Positions 13,978 to 45,400 of a stretch of DNA of 64,000 bases are shown piece after piece (the first letter of the stretch is position 1; each line of letters opens with the position of its first letter). The notes beneath the pieces are model-generated. The model had not been told where the DNA came from, made no database searches, and worked only from the letters and a program-made list of their open reading frames with translations. The translations under genes were made by a program, and so were the position numbers. The stretch is from Bacteroidota bacterium. Lineage in GTDB: Bacteria > Bacteroidota > Bacteroidia > Bacteroidales > Lentimicrobiaceae. The DNA lies in contig WSXX01000002.1 of assembly GCA_009773515.1 (NCBI GenBank), positions 186,001-250,000 on the forward strand. Reading direction: 5' to 3'.

Positions 13978-13995
13978 TCCCGATAGCTATCGGGA
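13978..13995. repeat. 18-bp perfect palindrome TCCCGATAGCTATCGGGA
   Basis: A self-complementary 18-mer in the spacer after the SRAP gene. It resembles the short dispersed palindromes seen in many Bacteroidota genomes; only this copy was noticed in the window. Confidence 0.7.
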
Positions 13996-20961: not shown

Positions 20962-21153
20962 GATTTTCAAGGTGTTAGAGCATACAGTAAACCTTAAATT
21001 GTGTTTACCTGTCAGATCGAACGGAGCAGGCTATTCTAGGCATTCTTATATACATCAACGATTTTACAAAAAGTAACTTCAAATGATGCATTATTTTCAT
21101 CAATACTATTCTGATGTATAATTCAATGTCGTTTATTTAAGAAAATTTGTCTT

Positions 21154-21169
21154 TCCCGCACGTGCGGGA
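21154..21169. repeat. Palindrome TCCCGCACGTGCGGGA, copy 1
   Basis: A perfect 16-bp palindrome inside the interrupted element. The following ACTCAG..TGACA matches the sequence after copy 2, giving a direct repeat of about 27 bp. Confidence 0.85.
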
Positions 21170-21302
21170 CTCAGATTGACAGTCATCCTGAGTTGAAACT
21201 CAAAAAATAATTTGAGCATAATGCGAAGATAACAATAGGAAACAGCATCCTTAACAATTTTCAGAAAGTTTGAAAGTACTTTCCCACTTTATAGTGAACA
21301 GG

Positions 21303-21527
21303 ATCAACCTTAATTTATCTTCCAAACCTTAGTAACAGGCAACCCACCAAACACCTTCAACCTTATTTTTTTCTTCCTAACCTTATTATTGTTCAATTTG
21401 AAAAGGTTGCCAGCTTATTGAGGTTTTCAAGAATGAATAAGCCTGCCTGTGTGCCGCCGGCAGACAGGGTTCAAAATCGTTGGGGTCAGTTTTGTTACTA
21501 AGGTTATTAAGAGTTACTAAGGTTGAT
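21303..21527. repeat. Imperfect 225-bp inverted repeat
   Basis: The outer arms ATCAACCTTA / TAAGGTTGAT and inner arms AACCTTAGTAAC (21325-21336) / GTTACTAAGGTT (21494-21505) are exact reverse complements. GTTACTAAGGTT recurs at 21513-21524. This lies within the extra segment of the interrupted element. Confidence 0.75.
21446..21468. repeat. Short hairpin CCTGTGTGCCG / CGGCAGACAGG
   Basis: 11-bp arms with one mismatch and a single-base spacer, located at the centre of the larger inverted repeat. Confidence 0.7.
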
Positions 21528-21573
21528 TTTTACTTTGATCAGCATTTGTTTGAATTCTAATCTGTCATTGGTA

Positions 21574-21591
21574 GTCCCGCACGTGCGGGAC
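21574..21591. repeat. Palindrome GTCCCGCACGTGCGGGAC, copy 2
   Basis: A perfect 18-bp palindrome sharing its 16-bp core with copy 1 about 420 bp away. Confidence 0.85.
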
Positions 21592-21798
21592 TCAGTGTGA
21601 CATTCGTGTTAGTGGAGCATTACATCACTTAATAAACTCATATTCAAACCTGTACGATGTCATCCTGAGCGGAGTCGAAGGATATTTTTTTTTCTGTTCA
21701 CAATCCTTACCTAAACGACATTGATTTCTAATTGTTATTCTGCTTAAAAGCTGGTTCGGGGTTAATTTATTATCTTTACCAGATAATATCTACGCAAG

Positions 21799-23976
21799 AT
21801 GGCAAAGAAAAAGCAAGGGTCAGTAGTCGCCCACTCTAAAAACGACGCATTTATCAAAACAGTTGAAACATTGTTTTCAACCAATTCATTCAAAGCATTC
21901 AATTTCAGACAAGTTGCAAAGCTTTTAGGCATTTCCGACAAAGTAAGCAAGGAGCACGTCAGGGTAATTCTTGAAAAGCTGGCGGCAAAAGAAATTATCA
22001 TTGAACTAAACCGCGGCAAATACAAATATAATCCTGATTTATTGAACGACAGAATTTTAACCGCAACTGTTATTGGTTTGGTTGACATGAAGCAGACCGG
22101 TAAGGCATATGTATCGGTAGCTGATCTGGATGAAGATGTTTTTGTAGGAGCCGGTCATACAGGCCATGCGCTTCATGGAGATACGGTGAAGGTTCATCTT
22201 TTCCCGCTCAGAAAAGGGCGTAAGGTTGAAGGGCAGATTGTTGAAGTGCTTAAACGTGGTCGTTCTCAGTATGTCGGAACCGTTCAGGTAACCGGCAAAT
22301 TTGCATTTTTAATCCCCGACGATGTTTCAATTCCCATTGATATTTTCATTCCGAAAGAATCGCTCAATAAAGCAACACACGGGCAAAAAGCCATAGCTCG
22401 GATTACTGAATGGCCGGAACGGTCGAAAAATCCCTATGGCGAAATAACTGATGTGCTGGGCAAACCCGGTGATAACAATGTGGAGATGAACTCCATACTT
22501 GCATCGTTCGAGTTTCCGTTGCAGTTCAGGCCTGAAACGCTGAAAGAAGCCGAAAAAATTCCCGAAAAAATCAGCGATGAAGAAATTGCAAAACGAAGAG
22601 ATTTCCGGAATATCTGGACATGCACCATTGACCCACCGGATGCAAAAGACTTTGATGATGCATTATCACTAAGGAAACTTGATTCGGGAGAATGGGAAGT
22701 GGGCGTTCATATTGCTGATGTTTCGCATTATGTAAAACCTCAGACTGCGCTGGATAAGGAAGCTTATGACAGAGGAACATCCATTTACCTGGTTGACAGA
22801 ACCATTCCGATGTTGCCTGAAAAATTGTCGAATATGGTTTGTTCGCTTCGCCCCAACGAAGACAAACTCTGTTTTTCGGCGGTTTTTACCCTTGACGATA
22901 AGGCAAAAATCAGCAGCGAGTGGTTTGGAAAAACCATCATAAACAGCGACCGTCGATATAGCTACGAGGAAGTTCAGGTGATGATTGAAGGCGCTGATGG
23001 CCAATACAAAGATGAACTTCTGATACTGAATCAACTGGCTGAGCAACTGAGAGAAGAGCGATTTAAAAAGGGATCGATTGCTTTTCACACCACAGAAGTG
23101 AAGTTCATTCTTGATGAAAACGGCAAACCTCTCGACACTTACGTTAAAGAACAAAAAGAAGCCAATATGCTGATTGAGGATTTCATGCTATTGGCTAACC
23201 GGCGTGTTGCTGAAAAAATCGGGCAAAAGAAAGGACAATCCACCCCTAAAACATTTGTTTATAGAGTTCATGACGAACCGAACCCCGATAAACTTGCCAA
23301 ATTTTCAGAGTTTCTAACCAAGCTCGGGTATAAACTAAATTTAGGATCGCATAAAAGCGTTGCCAATTCATTCAACCACCTGTTTGAACAGATTGCAGGC
23401 AAAGGCGAAAAAACAATGATTGAAACCATCGCCATCCGCACCATGTCAAAAGCCGAATATTCAACGGTAAACATTGGCCATTACGGACTATCATTCCCGT
23501 TTTACACACACTTTACTTCGCCTATCCGCAGGTATCCCGATCTGATGGTACATCGGCTTCTGGAATGGTATTTAGAAGGAAAGGGCTCTGCAAGCAAGGA
23601 AGAGTATGAAGAATATTGTGTGCACAGTTCGGAAATGGAGCGCAAAGCAGCAGAGGCTGAAAGAGCTTCGGTAAAATACAAACAGGCAGAGTTTCTTCAG
23701 GATAAAATCGGGCAATCGTTTAATGGCCTTATTTCGGGTGTCAGCAAGTATGGTATTTTTGTGGAACTGGAAGGCAGCAAATGTGAGGGAATGGTTTCAA
23801 TGAAGTACATGGACGACGATTTCTATTACCTTGATGAAGACAATTACCGTGTTATCGGACAACATCATGGCCGCGAATTTAAGCTGGGAGCTCCGATAAA
23901 GATCCGTGTAAAACGTGTTGATCTTCAACGCAAACAAATGGATTTTGTGCTTGACGATTCAATGTCGTTTAGTTAA
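21799..23976 (+). CDS. rnr: Ribonuclease R
   Basis: A processive 3'-5' exoribonuclease of the RNB family that degrades structured RNA. An N-terminal winged-helix/cold-shock region is followed by the RNB catalytic domain with the acidic cluster in IDPPDAKDFDDA (Asp278, Asp281, Asp284, Asp286, Asp287). A C-terminal S1 domain starts near 639 (FNGLISGVSKYGIFVELEG). 725 residues is typical of Bacteroidota RNase R. The last codons (SMSFS-stop) lie inside the left terminal repeat of the downstream palindromic element, and another copy of the element sits upstream. Confidence 0.95.
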   Translation: MAKKKQGSVVAHSKNDAFIKTVETLFSTNSFKAFNFRQVAKLLGISDKVSKEHVRVILEKLAAKEIIIELNRGKYKYNPDLLNDRILTATVIGLVDMKQTGKAYVSVADLDEDVFVGAGHTGHALHGDTVKVHLFPLRKGRKVEGQIVEVLKRGRSQYVGTVQVTGKFAFLIPDDVSIPIDIFIPKESLNKATHGQKAIARITEWPERSKNPYGEITDVLGKPGDNNVEMNSILASFEFPLQFRPETLKEAEKIPEKISDEEIAKRRDFRNIWTCTIDPPDAKDFDDALSLRKLDSGEWEVGVHIADVSHYVKPQTALDKEAYDRGTSIYLVDRTIPMLPEKLSNMVCSLRPNEDKLCFSAVFTLDDKAKISSEWFGKTIINSDRRYSYEEVQVMIEGADGQYKDELLILNQLAEQLREERFKKGSIAFHTTEVKFILDENGKPLDTYVKEQKEANMLIEDFMLLANRRVAEKIGQKKGQSTPKTFVYRVHDEPNPDKLAKFSEFLTKLGYKLNLGSHKSVANSFNHLFEQIAGKGEKTMIETIAIRTMSKAEYSTVNIGHYGLSFPFYTHFTSPIRRYPDLMVHRLLEWYLEGKGSASKEEYEEYCVHSSEMERKAAEAERASVKYKQAEFLQDKIGQSFNGLISGVSKYGIFVELEGSKCEGMVSMKYMDDDFYYLDEDNYRVIGQHHGREFKLGAPIKIRVKRVDLQRKQMDFVLDDSMSFS

Positions 23977-24082
23977 GGAATATTGTCTTCGACTCCGCTC
24001 AGACTGACAGTCATCCTGAGCGGAGTCGAAGGATATTTGATTCACTTATCTGAAATTTCGAAACCTTAACTAAACGACATTG
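23960..24082. mobile_element. 123-bp MITE-like nested-palindrome element, compact copy
   Basis: Perfect 19-bp terminal inverted repeats CAATGTCGTTTAGTTAAGG (23960-23978) and CCTTAACTAAACGACATTG (24064-24082) enclose a 16-bp perfect stem, CTTCGACTCCGCTCAG (23987-24002) / CTGAGCGGAGTCGAAG (24016-24031). Its left end overlaps the last codons and stop of rnr. As RNA the inner stem would fold into a strong hairpin and could protect or terminate the rnr transcript. No transposase is present nearby. Confidence 0.75.
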
Positions 24083-24149
24083 CTTGACAATTCTTTACAG
24101 TAAGAAAAGCTCCTCAAAAAAAATGTTTTAAAAACAACAATCAATAATT

Positions 24150-25292
24150 ATGGAAAATTTTGTTGCATATAATCCCACAAGCCTTCACTTTGGCAAAGAT
24201 GTACTCAATGGACTCGGGCAGGTTATCAACCGATTTGGCAAAAAGGTTTTGCTGGTTTATGGAACAGGTTCAATAAAGCAAAACGGACTTTACGATCTGG
24301 TTATCAAACAACTGGAATTAATTGGTGCCGAAGTATTTGAATATGGCGGAATCCGCTCTAATCCGATTGTTGAAGATGTTGATGCAGCAGCAGCACTCGG
24401 CCGTGAACACGGTGTGGATGTTGTGCTTGCTGTTGGCGGTGGAAGTGTGATTGACTCAGCAAAAATCATTTCAATCACCATTCCTGTTGAAACCCCGGCC
24501 TGGAATTTCTTTGTCAGAAGGGCGCTTCCACGCACTGCTGTTCCTTTGATTTCGGTACTCACACTGGCAGCAACCGGAACTGAAATGAATCCATTTGCAG
24601 TGATTTCAAATCATGCAGCCGAAAATAAAGGAAGTTTCAGTAGCCCGCTGATGTATCCCAAACACTCATTTTTAGATCCGCAGTTTACAATGTCAGTCCC
24701 CCGGGACTATACTGCGTTTGGTGTTGCCGATCTTATTGCTCATTCGCTGGAAGCTTTTTTTGGCAAAGGTGAAGAGGCAACATTGTCTGACAGGTTTGTA
24801 TATTCCATCATTCTTGAAGCAATGGAATACGGACCTGAACTGATTAATGATCTTTCAAATTACAAGCTGCGTGCAAAAATAATGTACGCAGCCACCATGG
24901 CACTCAATGGAATGACCATGAACGGCCGGGTTTCGGGTGAATGGGGCGTTCACAGCATCGGACATGTACTTTCGCTTTTATATGATGTGCCGCACGGGGC
25001 TTCACTTACAATCGTTTATCCTGCATGGCTGCGGCTGCAAAAAGATCGTATTGGCAAACGGATTTCACTTTTGGGCGAAAACCTCTTTGGCACTTCAGAT
25101 GTTGATGAAACCATAAATCAACTGGAAGGATTTTTCAAAAGCCTCGACTGCCCGGTAAGACTGAACGATATACAAGGAATAAAGCCGGATGCAGATGAAA
25201 TATTCAGAATAATGGAGCTGAATAAAGCAGCTACCTTTGTTCACAAACTCGATCATGACGACTACAGGCGAATCATTCAGCTAATGATGTAG
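24150..25292 (+). CDS. Iron-type (group III) NAD(P)H-dependent alcohol dehydrogenase, YqhD-like
   Basis: Reduces aldehydes or ketones to alcohols with a divalent metal. The nucleotide site has VGGGSVIDSAK (96-105). The metal ligands Asp194, His198, His268 and His282 sit almost exactly where they do in E. coli YqhD (194, 198, 267, 281). ATGTEMNPFAVI and DVPHGASL are further family signatures. 380 residues is typical. Its substrate cannot be read from sequence. It follows the palindromic element by about 70 bp and precedes an unrecognised membrane protein on the same strand. Confidence 0.9.
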   Translation: MENFVAYNPTSLHFGKDVLNGLGQVINRFGKKVLLVYGTGSIKQNGLYDLVIKQLELIGAEVFEYGGIRSNPIVEDVDAAAALGREHGVDVVLAVGGGSVIDSAKIISITIPVETPAWNFFVRRALPRTAVPLISVLTLAATGTEMNPFAVISNHAAENKGSFSSPLMYPKHSFLDPQFTMSVPRDYTAFGVADLIAHSLEAFFGKGEEATLSDRFVYSIILEAMEYGPELINDLSNYKLRAKIMYAATMALNGMTMNGRVSGEWGVHSIGHVLSLLYDVPHGASLTIVYPAWLRLQKDRIGKRISLLGENLFGTSDVDETINQLEGFFKSLDCPVRLNDIQGIKPDADEIFRIMELNKAATFVHKLDHDDYRRIIQLMM

Positions 25293-26951: not shown

Positions 26952-27030
26952 ATTCGTATCAGGAGGAATGTCAAATTAACTTCCATAAAGTAAGACAGTT
27001 TTTATATCCCCCTCTTCTCCCCCTTTTGTG

Positions 27031-27046
27031 CTTCGACTCCGCTCAG
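27031..27046. repeat. Solo repeat arm CTTCGACTCCGCTCAG
   Basis: Identical over 16 bp to the inner left arm of the compact element downstream of rnr. The partner arm is absent here. Confidence 0.8.
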
Positions 27047-27176
27047 CATGACAGGGGGGCGATTACTTTCGTTTTTTTAGACACATTCGTTTTCGAAAAG
27101 TCCAATTAGATGGGGTACTCAAGTGGGTAAGTTATTTCGACAGTTTCACTTAGAAAGGACAACCGTAAAGAATGTT

Positions 27177-42435: not shown

Positions 42436-45400
42436 TTAAACAGGTAAAACGATAATAAATTCAGTTCCCTCACCTTCTAGGGTTTCCACCTTCAACTCTC
42501 CCCCATGTCCTTTGGTGACGATTTCGTAACTCATGCTTAATCCCAGCCCGGTACCCTCGCCCGTGGGTTTGGTAGTGAAAAAAGGCTGGAATATCTTGTC
42601 AAGCACATTGGCCGGAATGCCATTCCCATTGTCTTTCACGCTCAATTCAACGACCCCCGGTCCCCCCGAAGTGGAGATGATCAGTCTGGTAGAAATTTTT
42701 ACCGTTGGTTCGTAAGCTTCTACGGCTTGTTTATTCTTTCCGGCAACAGTACTTCGACTTCGTTCAGTGCAGGCATAAAATGCATTGGTAATCAGGTTGA
42801 GAATAACCCTTCCCAGATCCTGCGGAATAACATTGATCTTTCCGATGGATGCATCAAAATCGGTTATCATGGTTGCATTGAACGATTTGTCCTTTGCCCT
42901 TAAACCATGGTAAGCAAGGCGCAGGTATTCATCAGCCAAAGCATTGATATCGGTGGGTTCCTTCGTGCCATTGCTCTTGCGGCTGTGTTGCAGCATTCCT
43001 TTTACAATGGCATCGGCCCGTTTGCCGTGATGGTTGATTTTCTGTTCGTTTTCTTTTATGTCATCTGCTATTTCTATTGCTGACTGTAACGAAACTTCGG
43101 TTCCAACAGCCAACTCTGCCTTCAATTCATCAATGAGTTCTGTATTTACTTCCGAGAAATTATTGACAAAGTTCAGCGGGTTTTGAATTTCATGGGCGAT
43201 ACCGGCGGTGAGTTCACCCAGGGAAGCCATTTTTTCGGATTGGATGAGCTGGGTTTGCGTGGTCTTTAGCGTATGATAGGCTTTCTCAATCTCCCGGGCA
43301 TGTTCAAGTTCTTTTTCTTTGGCCGCTGTGTGCTCTCTCATCAGCAGCCTGCGCCGCTGAAAGCGGTCAATAAGAAATACAACAGCAACGGCCAGTATTC
43401 CGTAAATGATGTAAGCCCACCAGGTTTTCCACCAGGGCGGCAAAACTGTAACGGCAATACTTGCACCTTTTTCGTTCCATACGCCGTCGCTATTGGCTGC
43501 TTTAACGCGGAAATTATAGCTTCCGGGTGAAAGATTGGTATAGGTGGCTGACCGCTGTATCCCCGCCTGTATCCAGTCTTTATCATAGCCTTCCAACATA
43601 TAAGCATAATGATTCGAACCAGGATCTGCATAATGAAACGCCACAAATTGAAAACTGATTCTATTCTCATTGTAATTCAGCTCTATCTGTTTCCTTCCAT
43701 ATGCCTGTAGCAAGGTATCCTTATTGTTTGCATCTGCATAACCAACTGTTTCAATCACCAGCTCAGGAGGAACAGCGCTGGTATTCATCCTTTCAGGATT
43801 AAACGAGATAAGACCACCTGCTGTGGCTATATTAAACCGGCCAGACTCTCCGGTATATAAAATATCATTGGATTCAACGTTCCCGATGGGAATAGCGTAA
43901 TTGACAACACGATTGCTTTTCGGATCAAGCCTGGATAAACCTCTCGCTGTCGCGATCCAGATATTGCCGGTGACATCTTCTTTTATTCCGAAAACGGAAT
44001 TAAAGAGTAACCCGTCTTTTTCTGAAAATCTTCTTTTTTTACCTGTTTTCTTATCAAACAAAAACAAACCTGAAAGGTAGGTACCTGCCCAAAACCTGCC
44101 ATGCTTATCCTCATATATGTTTATAATGCAATTGAAGCCAGCCTTCAGATCCAGAAAGGAGGTAAACTCCCCGGTTCTTGTGTCAAGCCTGTTAAGACCG
44201 CCCATGTTGGTGCCGACCCATAAAATTCCTTCTTTATCAAAAAACAGGGTATGCACCCGGCTATCATCCAACGTATTTTTTGCCACCATTGTACCGTTAT
44301 TCTGAATGAACGGATAGCGGGTAAATGTTCCACGTGTTTTATTAAGACTTCCAAGCCCCTGATCGTCGGTCCCAATCCACAGATTTCCTTTTTGGTCTTC
44401 CTTTAGAATACTAATATAATCACTGCTGAGGGATGTACTATCTTTAGGGTCGTTCCTGTAGTTTTTTACTGATTTATTTACCGGGTTATAACAAAACAGC
44501 CCGCTTCCGCCTGACCCTATCCATACCAGACCATCTTTTGAAGCGATAACAGCATTTATCTGCCGGTAAACATTGCTGTTATTAAGCTCTATTCTCTTAT
44601 AATTGTTAAGTTTATAATTCCAGGCAAAAAGACCCGATGTGTTTTTGACATAGAAAATACTGTCAGAAGCACGTCCAACGATCTGAAAGTCAGGTTGGTG
44701 ACCTGCGGCCGGTTCACCTGATAGCGGCGCAATTAACAATGGATTGAAAATTGACCTCCGTTCATCAAGACAAGCGATACCACTCCAGGGCATGCTGATC
44801 CACAAAGTGCCCGAACGGTCGTAAAACAGTTTATCAATCCCGGATCCGAAATCAGGCAGGCTCCCAGGTTCATTGCTGTGAGCATAGTAAGTAGCAACTG
44901 CAGTTTTCAGGTTGAGGTAATAAAGTTCTTTATAGCCTCCCAACCATAGGTTCCCTTCCTTATCGGAGGTAAGTGCATATACTGAGGTCTTGTTGCCGGT
45001 TGATGAAGCTGGAAATTTTATCGCATAATTGGTAAATGTTTCATTTTGTGGATTAAAGATTGAAATTCCTTTGTCTGTTAAATACCAGATGCGATTTAAT
45101 GAATCGGTTAAAATACCCATGCAGTTACCTGCGATGGAAGCCGGATCTTTGTCATTCTGAATAAATATTTTATATGCTTTAGTCCTGGTATTGATTTTTA
45201 AAACTTTTCTCTTGTAAGGATTCTTGTTTTCGTCAATGCCAGATATAAATGTATTTGCCCAGATGATATCCTGATCTAAAGGGTCGGCAACAAGATTAGC
45301 AAACTTTATTTTTTTTGTGCTGTCTGGAATCACAAACCAGGATTTGAATGATCTGGACGACGGGTCGAAAAGGCTTAACAGGCTATCAGTTGCCAGCCAG

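Follow-up and report, generated by a model that had tools for sequence, protein, structure and literature searches.

Two copies of a miniature element with IS4-type ends at the ribonuclease R gene of a Bacteroidota genome

The ribonuclease R gene (rnr) of a Lentimicrobiaceae bacterium (Bacteroidota; assembly GCA_009773515.1) is bracketed by two hairpin-forming repeats with related terminal inverted repeats (TIRs). The gene lies in a stretch of 64,000 nucleotides, hereafter the window (C3:186001-250000 of a 5.03-Mb draft genome of 67 contigs that is 97% complete). Both repeats are copies of one non-autonomous transposable element, a miniature inverted-repeat transposable element (MITE), because the repeat is present in many genomic copies, is flanked by 10-bp target duplications, is missing from the rnr loci examined in 19 relatives, and has a parent insertion sequence (IS) in other genomes. 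We are highly confident that this MITE consists of IS4-subgroup ends of only 18 to 19 bp around a hairpin body and that it inserted twice, independently, near rnr. The first-pass annotation of this DNA had proposed a non-autonomous MITE or a family of the repetitive extragenic palindromic (REP) type; the MITE half stands on the evidence just listed, and the REP half does not, since the palindromes, at up to 3 mismatches, were found neither in the seven Y1_Tnp (REP-type transposase) loci of the genome nor within approximately 1.5 kb of them.

The two copies and the end of rnr

The features of the locus are as follows (window positions; a dot marks features without strand).

21114-21123, plus: left target-site duplicate of the upstream copy, ATGTATAATT, 8/10 match to 21724-21733
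21124-21723, plus: upstream MITE copy, long form, 600 bp, with a TIR pair; 15 other TIR-bounded long-form pairs measure 274-513 bp, of which C24:177553 at least is probably false
21124-21142, plus: left TIR of the upstream copy, CAATGTCGTTTATTTAAGA
21154-21169, dot: cassette TCCCGCACGTGCGGGA, a palindrome that replaces the tip CGACTCCG in the first hairpin arm of the upstream copy
21575-21590, dot: second TCCCGCACGTGCGGGA palindrome in the upstream copy, followed by CTCAG and not preceded by CTT, the sole exception of 18
21660-21683, plus: dispersed hairpin core TCATCCTGAGCGGAGTCGAAGGAT
21705-21723, minus: right TIR of the upstream copy
21724-21733, plus: right target-site duplicate of the upstream copy, ATTTCTAATT
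21771-21779, plus: putative rnr -7 box TATCTTTAC, 3' of the upstream copy
21799-23976, plus: rnr, ribonuclease R, 725 amino acids (TIGR02063, E 1.4e-224, residues 20-718), stop codon TAA at 23974-23976 inside the compact MITE
23950-23959, plus: left target-site duplicate of the compact copy, CTTGACGATT, 9/10 match to 24083-24092
23960-24082, plus: 123-bp compact form of the MITE, included in an alignment of 20 such copies
23960-23978, plus: left TIR of the compact copy, source of the rnr stop codon
23987-24002, plus: inner stem, 5' arm, CTTCGACTCCGCTCAG
24016-24031, plus: inner stem, 3' arm, CTGAGCGGAGTCGAAG
24064-24082, minus: right TIR of the compact copy
24083-24092, plus: right target-site duplicate of the compact copy, CTTGACAATT
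24101-24103, plus: probably the original stop codon of rnr, read in frame when the empty site is joined (...FVLDDSLQ*)

The TIRs (19 bp) and the inner stem (16 bp) of the compact copy are free of mismatches. The upstream copy agrees with it at 12 bp of the ends (CAATGTCGTTTA) and in a 29-bp block that is 100% identical (21659-21687 and 24010-24038). These points had been described in the first-pass annotation and were all borne out, as was its view that the copies have no coding capacity: no open reading frame (ORF) of at least 60 amino acids was found inside either one. Allowing up to 3 mismatches, the 18-mer of the TIR matched the window 4 times, against a mean of 0.06 in shuffled sequence. 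As RNA, the compact copy was predicted to fold at -61.6 kcal/mol (z -11.4) and the long upstream copy at -189.6 kcal/mol (z -9.6). No Rfam family matched at the gathering threshold, and a scan restricted to loops of 3 to 8 detected no terminator-like site (GC-rich stem plus T run) in 23700-24300.

That an element stands on both sides of rnr is correct insofar as there are two copies; the downstream one overlaps the gene end and does not lie beyond it. The rnr frame enters the compact copy by 17 nt, the TIR supplying the TAA; in two of its three frames, this TIR has a stop within 17 nt. When the flanks were joined with a single copy of the duplicate, the frame continued into an open C-terminus, ...FVLDDSLQ*. 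The compact insertion in the last rnr codons gave the gene a new stop and changed only its tail. This change is probably harmless for RNase R, because the joined flanks read ...FVLDDSLQ* and the tails of the relatives' proteins differ in sequence and length right after the conserved end. Among the 36 TIR pairs of the genome, rnr is the only ORF of at least 120 codons that stops at a TIR (the other read-in case is the doubtful pair C24:177553), and it is a clear example of a gene receiving a new stop codon from a MITE. On the other side of the gene, the upstream copy ends 47 nt before the TATCTTTAC box, which we take to be of the -7 type. Because a similar box precedes rnr in 18 of 19 relatives, the upstream copy is probably outside the rnr mRNA, and the downstream copy alone would be in the transcript.

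The rnr gene was found in 40 of the 41 genomes of our set of relatives (own genome included), and the best-matching loci of 19 relatives were examined (18 of the same genus and 1 of the same order; approximately 1.5 kb around the gene, less at some contig ends). In these stretches, none of the 19 loci contained a TIR (up to 4 mismatches) or the hairpin core (up to 2 mismatches). The flanks of the relatives have diverged, so that no nucleotide-level empty site was obtained. We also compared the spacing of family members along the genome. Adjacent places less than 3.1 kb apart were seen in 2 pairs against 1.6 expected (P 0.48; 52 hand-listed places, without C24:177553 and the weak single TIRs C36:85769, C38:46590, C46:92370, C51:15844, and C64:25856). 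Hence, the bracketing of rnr is unremarkable and expected by chance, as the first-pass annotation had allowed. Its other suggestion was that the hairpins affect the stability of the mRNA of RNase R itself, and a reading in which they are regulatory RNA structures that flank rnr and tune its own messenger could draw on the very stable fold of the compact copy, which would be at the 3' end of the transcript. We consider this reading extremely unlikely, given that the elements are absent from all the relatives' loci examined, that 34 of the 36 TIR pairs are located elsewhere in the genome, that close pairs are at chance level, that the upstream copy precedes the putative promoter, and that neither an Rfam match nor a terminator-like site was found. 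Autoregulation of RNase R through flanking hairpins was thus rejected as the main explanation on its chance-level spacing and its absence in relatives, and with the upstream copy probably outside the mRNA the suggested link to messenger stability is not supported.

Genomic copies, target duplications and the IS4 parent

Genome-wide, the TIR gave 86 matches against 13 for a reversed control pattern, and 36 inverted pairs were recognized, both window copies included and two of them doubtful, so that the motif is not confined to rnr. The pairs fall into 20 compact elements (121-154 bp) and 16 longer ones (274-600 bp, one probably false); they are multi-copy, short (121-600 bp over the 36 pairs) and without transposase, as MITEs are. 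The target duplication is 10 bp: at exactly that length the mean flank identity was 0.853, compared with 0.23-0.35 for lengths of 6-9 and 11-14 bp. Duplicates agreed at 8/10 or better in 28 of 36 pairs, compared with 45 of 1260 combinations of flanks from different elements, and perfectly in 14 of 36; these statistics took in all 36 pairs. The duplications abut the outer side of CAATG...CATTG, and the flanks of the pairs are 80% A+T.

The likely source of these ends was found outside the window genome. In a relative (G024), two copies with these TIRs enclose the N-terminal part of a transposase that reaches the cut-off for DDE_Tnp_1 and stays below the NCBIfam IS4 cut-off because it is incomplete. 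A pattern-based scan with this protein, covering the genomes of 84,980 species, returned 12 transposase loci, mostly labelled Bacteroidales or Bacteroidetes and one Chlorobiota. Both TIRs, with CAATGTCGTTTA(G/C)TTA on each side, are present in 11 of the 12. Nine of these 11 span 1476-1500 bp and combine a YREK motif with CAATGTCGTTTAGTTAAG-type ends (L111 is an exception among the nine in that its YREK frame yielded no D motifs); the other two, L107 and L118, come from one isolate, RS_7_37, and measure only 956 and 756 bp. The 10-bp duplications are perfect at L111, L115, and L116, and reach 8/10 at L118 and 7/10 at L107; L113, L114, and L117 start at a contig end, so that theirs are not scorable. 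All 3 full transposases tested exceeded the NCBIfam IS4 cut-off. In the 8 loci with all three motifs in one frame, the second D starts 76-82 amino acids after the first and the E follows 112 amino acids after the start of the second D, and the parent thus has the Y(2)R(3)E(6)K signature and the D(60-110)D(100-150)E spacing of the IS4 family. In the published description of the family (PMC2266710), IS4-subgroup elements have ends of the form -AATR--------WTW----, lengths of 1400-1650 bp and duplications of 10-13 bp; the ends of our elements, compared by eye, match this consensus at every conserved position. The parent is identified as an IS4-family, IS4-subgroup insertion sequence in other Bacteroidota metagenome-assembled genomes. 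Like the subgroup, it has such ends and 10-bp duplications, with copies of 1476-1500 bp and a YREK transposase, whereas the window elements have no transposase and share with the parent 18-19 bp per end.

We infer a trans-mobilization by cut and paste, in which an IS4 transposase supplied by another element would excise the MITE at its CAATG...CATTG ends and insert it into AT-rich DNA, leaving the 10-bp duplication. The upstream copy has a response-regulator-like ORF on one side and the putative rnr promoter on the other; the downstream copy, a separate insertion, hit the last rnr codons, where the TIR provides the new stop and a slightly changed tail. Because the repeat family is now assigned to a defined IS4 parent, its movement is open to direct testing.

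Several observations weigh against this explanation. Eight of the 36 pairs have weak duplications (7/10 or less), and C24:177553, which is probably not an element, and C28:7681 reach only 2/10 each; the duplicates of the upstream window copy agree at just 8/10, and the full-length parent copies L108-L110 have poor duplications (4-5/10). MITE and IS have only their ends in common (18-19 bp each), their bodies being unrelated, and no transposition was observed. In addition, searches of the window genome, a 67-contig draft, detected no transposase related to that of the parent, and one of the queries did match in G024; a parent copy was possibly missed in assembly gaps. Since partners exist in other genomes, the lack of one here lowers the case for recent activity and not that for the descent of the ends. 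The single PF01609 (DDE_Tnp_1) match of the genome, on contig C49 (L031), was considered as the parent and rejected, as the best TIR match in that locus has 6 mismatches. The twelfth locus of the scan, L112, which has no TIR at up to 5 mismatches, contains an ORF that is an IS4 transposase in its N-terminal part and a different protein sequence thereafter, possibly a fusion or a truncated remnant.

Different bodies between the same ends

With 1 mismatch allowed, TIR matches were present in 8 of the 41 genomes of the relatives set and in 5 of 395 genomes of a phylum sample, both tallies counting the window's own genome. Reading 18 loci from seven relatives gave 13 TIR pairs, 8 with duplications of 8/10 or better and 5 below (L195 is listed twice, one entry doing no more than spanning the element of the other). 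Among the bodies compared, G004 has 51 and G012 has 24 identical bp in common with the window element, and the bodies of G015, G027, G034, and G401 have nothing in common with it at E 0.01. When 10 bodies were folded, z was below -5 in five and between -1.7 and -3.5 in the other five; because of this even split, strong hairpin bodies are common and not universal. At L195 (G027:C55:2600-4600), a 100-bp element with the same TIRs and an unrelated hairpin abuts, as judged by eye, what appears to be the C-terminal remainder of an IS4 transposase, whose own TIR is retained.

Inside the genome, the hairpin core also occurs on its own. The core TCATCCTGAGCGGAGTCGAAGGAT gave 136 genome matches (control, 0), many of them in a hairpin repeat without a recognized TIR pair. 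We read 40 such loci (L145-L184), chosen among 100 listed of the 136 matches, and found no consistent target duplication. They represent a high-copy dispersed hairpin repeat of the form CACTTCGACTCCGCTCAGTGTGACATTCGT ... ACGATGTC(A/C)TCCTGAGCGGAGTCGAAGGAT, and a similar arm pair is present in G018 (L240). One explanation, compatible with the IS4 origin of the ends, is that ends and hairpin body are separately mobile and that host repeats were taken up between IS4 ends on several independent occasions. We lean slightly towards it. The same ends, well duplicated in most of the pairs from other genomes, enclose unrelated bodies there, half of the folded bodies are strong hairpins, and the 40 loci hold 42 core copies without a recognized TIR pair; on the other hand, dispersed bodies outside TIRs were sought in the window genome only, and the other half of the bodies fold only moderately better than shuffles. 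A different reading would make the repeats a REP or REPIN system moved by a Y1 transposase of the REP-associated tyrosine transposase (RAYT) type, not by an IS4 transposase. The seven Y1_Tnp matches of the genome, the hairpin body and the wide dispersal of the core speak for it, but it appears very unlikely for the TIR-bounded elements: none of these palindromes was found, at up to 3 mismatches, within approximately 1.5 kb on either side of the seven Y1_Tnp loci (at 3 of these loci the inverted repeats were also listed), and a RAYT/REP origin of the palindromes was rejected on this ground. Moreover, 10-bp duplications and IS4-type TIRs are, to our knowledge, not expected of RAYTs. For the core copies without a TIR pair, which lack a consistent duplication, the REP/REPIN reading could apply. 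A REPIN consists of two inverted palindromic units, and the dispersed core resembles two such units approximately 70 nt apart. The window family differs from REPINs (PMC3116915) in its IS4 ends and 10-bp duplications, and no linked Y1 transposase gene was found.

The sequence words of TIR, arm, and core were absent from the open-access literature searched. QMITE2 of Coxiella burnetii is a small hairpin MITE with 7-11 nt duplications; according to PMC5896051 it holds a REP described as an IS1111 target, its palindromic tip is more divergent in other species, and one insertion is in frame at the 3' end of a gene. Both are small hairpin MITEs; in the window family, other palindromes have taken the place of the tips, and the parent belongs to the IS4 family. 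In Porphyromonas gingivalis, the published account (PMC4596501) gives BrickBuilt and 464/PgRS similar TIRs and otherwise dissimilar sequences (a pairing we take from context), interiors of tandem repeats of 23 and 41 nt, duplications of no single length, and, among the listed TIRs, one that begins CCGAAAGG. These are likewise MITEs of Bacteroidales with similar TIRs and differing bodies. The parallels place our MITE among known kinds, and its sequence family is new to the literature searched. Its oddest part is the hairpin body, with arm tips exchanged for palindromes at fixed junctions and, in other genomes, unrelated bodies between the same ends.

Palindromic tips of the hairpin arms

The arm CTT[CGACTCCG]CTCAG at times has a different palindrome at its tip. 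TCCCGCACGTGCGGGA has 18 sites at up to 1 mismatch, 17 of them with CTT/CTCAG flanks (at least 7 of 8 letters), and TTCCGATAGCTATCGGAA has 32 sites, 25 with CTTCG/CCGCT flanks (at least 9 of 10 letters); a looser arm-pattern count of 221 occurrences includes overlapping or chance fits, and these site counts are cleaner. The same tips occur in arms with different continuations (ACTGAC, TGTGAC, GAGGAC, and GATGAC), and G004 and G012 carry another inverted-repeat insert at the point of a third cassette of the window genome. Of the other genomes sampled, G001 and G054 had short tandem variants, and none of these cassettes was otherwise found; the three cassette patterns had 0 matches in viral contigs, where the TIR had 1. 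A tentative interpretation, which we consider possible and rather doubtful, is that the arms are a docking site for interchangeable palindromic cassettes at recurrent junctions, the 8-nt tip CGACTCCG being replaced or enlarged by at least 2 perfect palindromes and two imperfect inverted repeats in several arm contexts; two congeners have a further such insert at one of these points. If so, a process would edit repeat tips, by site-specific insertion of tiny palindromes or by template switching at hairpins, and the IS4-type MITE would be one of its carriers. The cassettes may each have had a single origin followed by copying, or may have docked repeatedly. The exchange of palindromes at recurrent arm junctions makes a countable puzzle of how hairpin tips change in bacterial repeats.

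Further matches were recorded in and near the window. A divergent core (3 mismatches) lies on the minus strand at 27028-27051 with no TIR match nearby, an arm at 42752 and a GATAGCTATC palindrome at 13978 are weak matches, and a further TIR match is located at C3:250837, 837 bp beyond the window end, its partner not found in the stretch read. L153 and L179, at the ends of contigs C36 and C45, have approximately 60 nt in common beside hairpin-repeat copies, and G037 has many repeats at contig ends; hairpin repeats seem to break assemblies.

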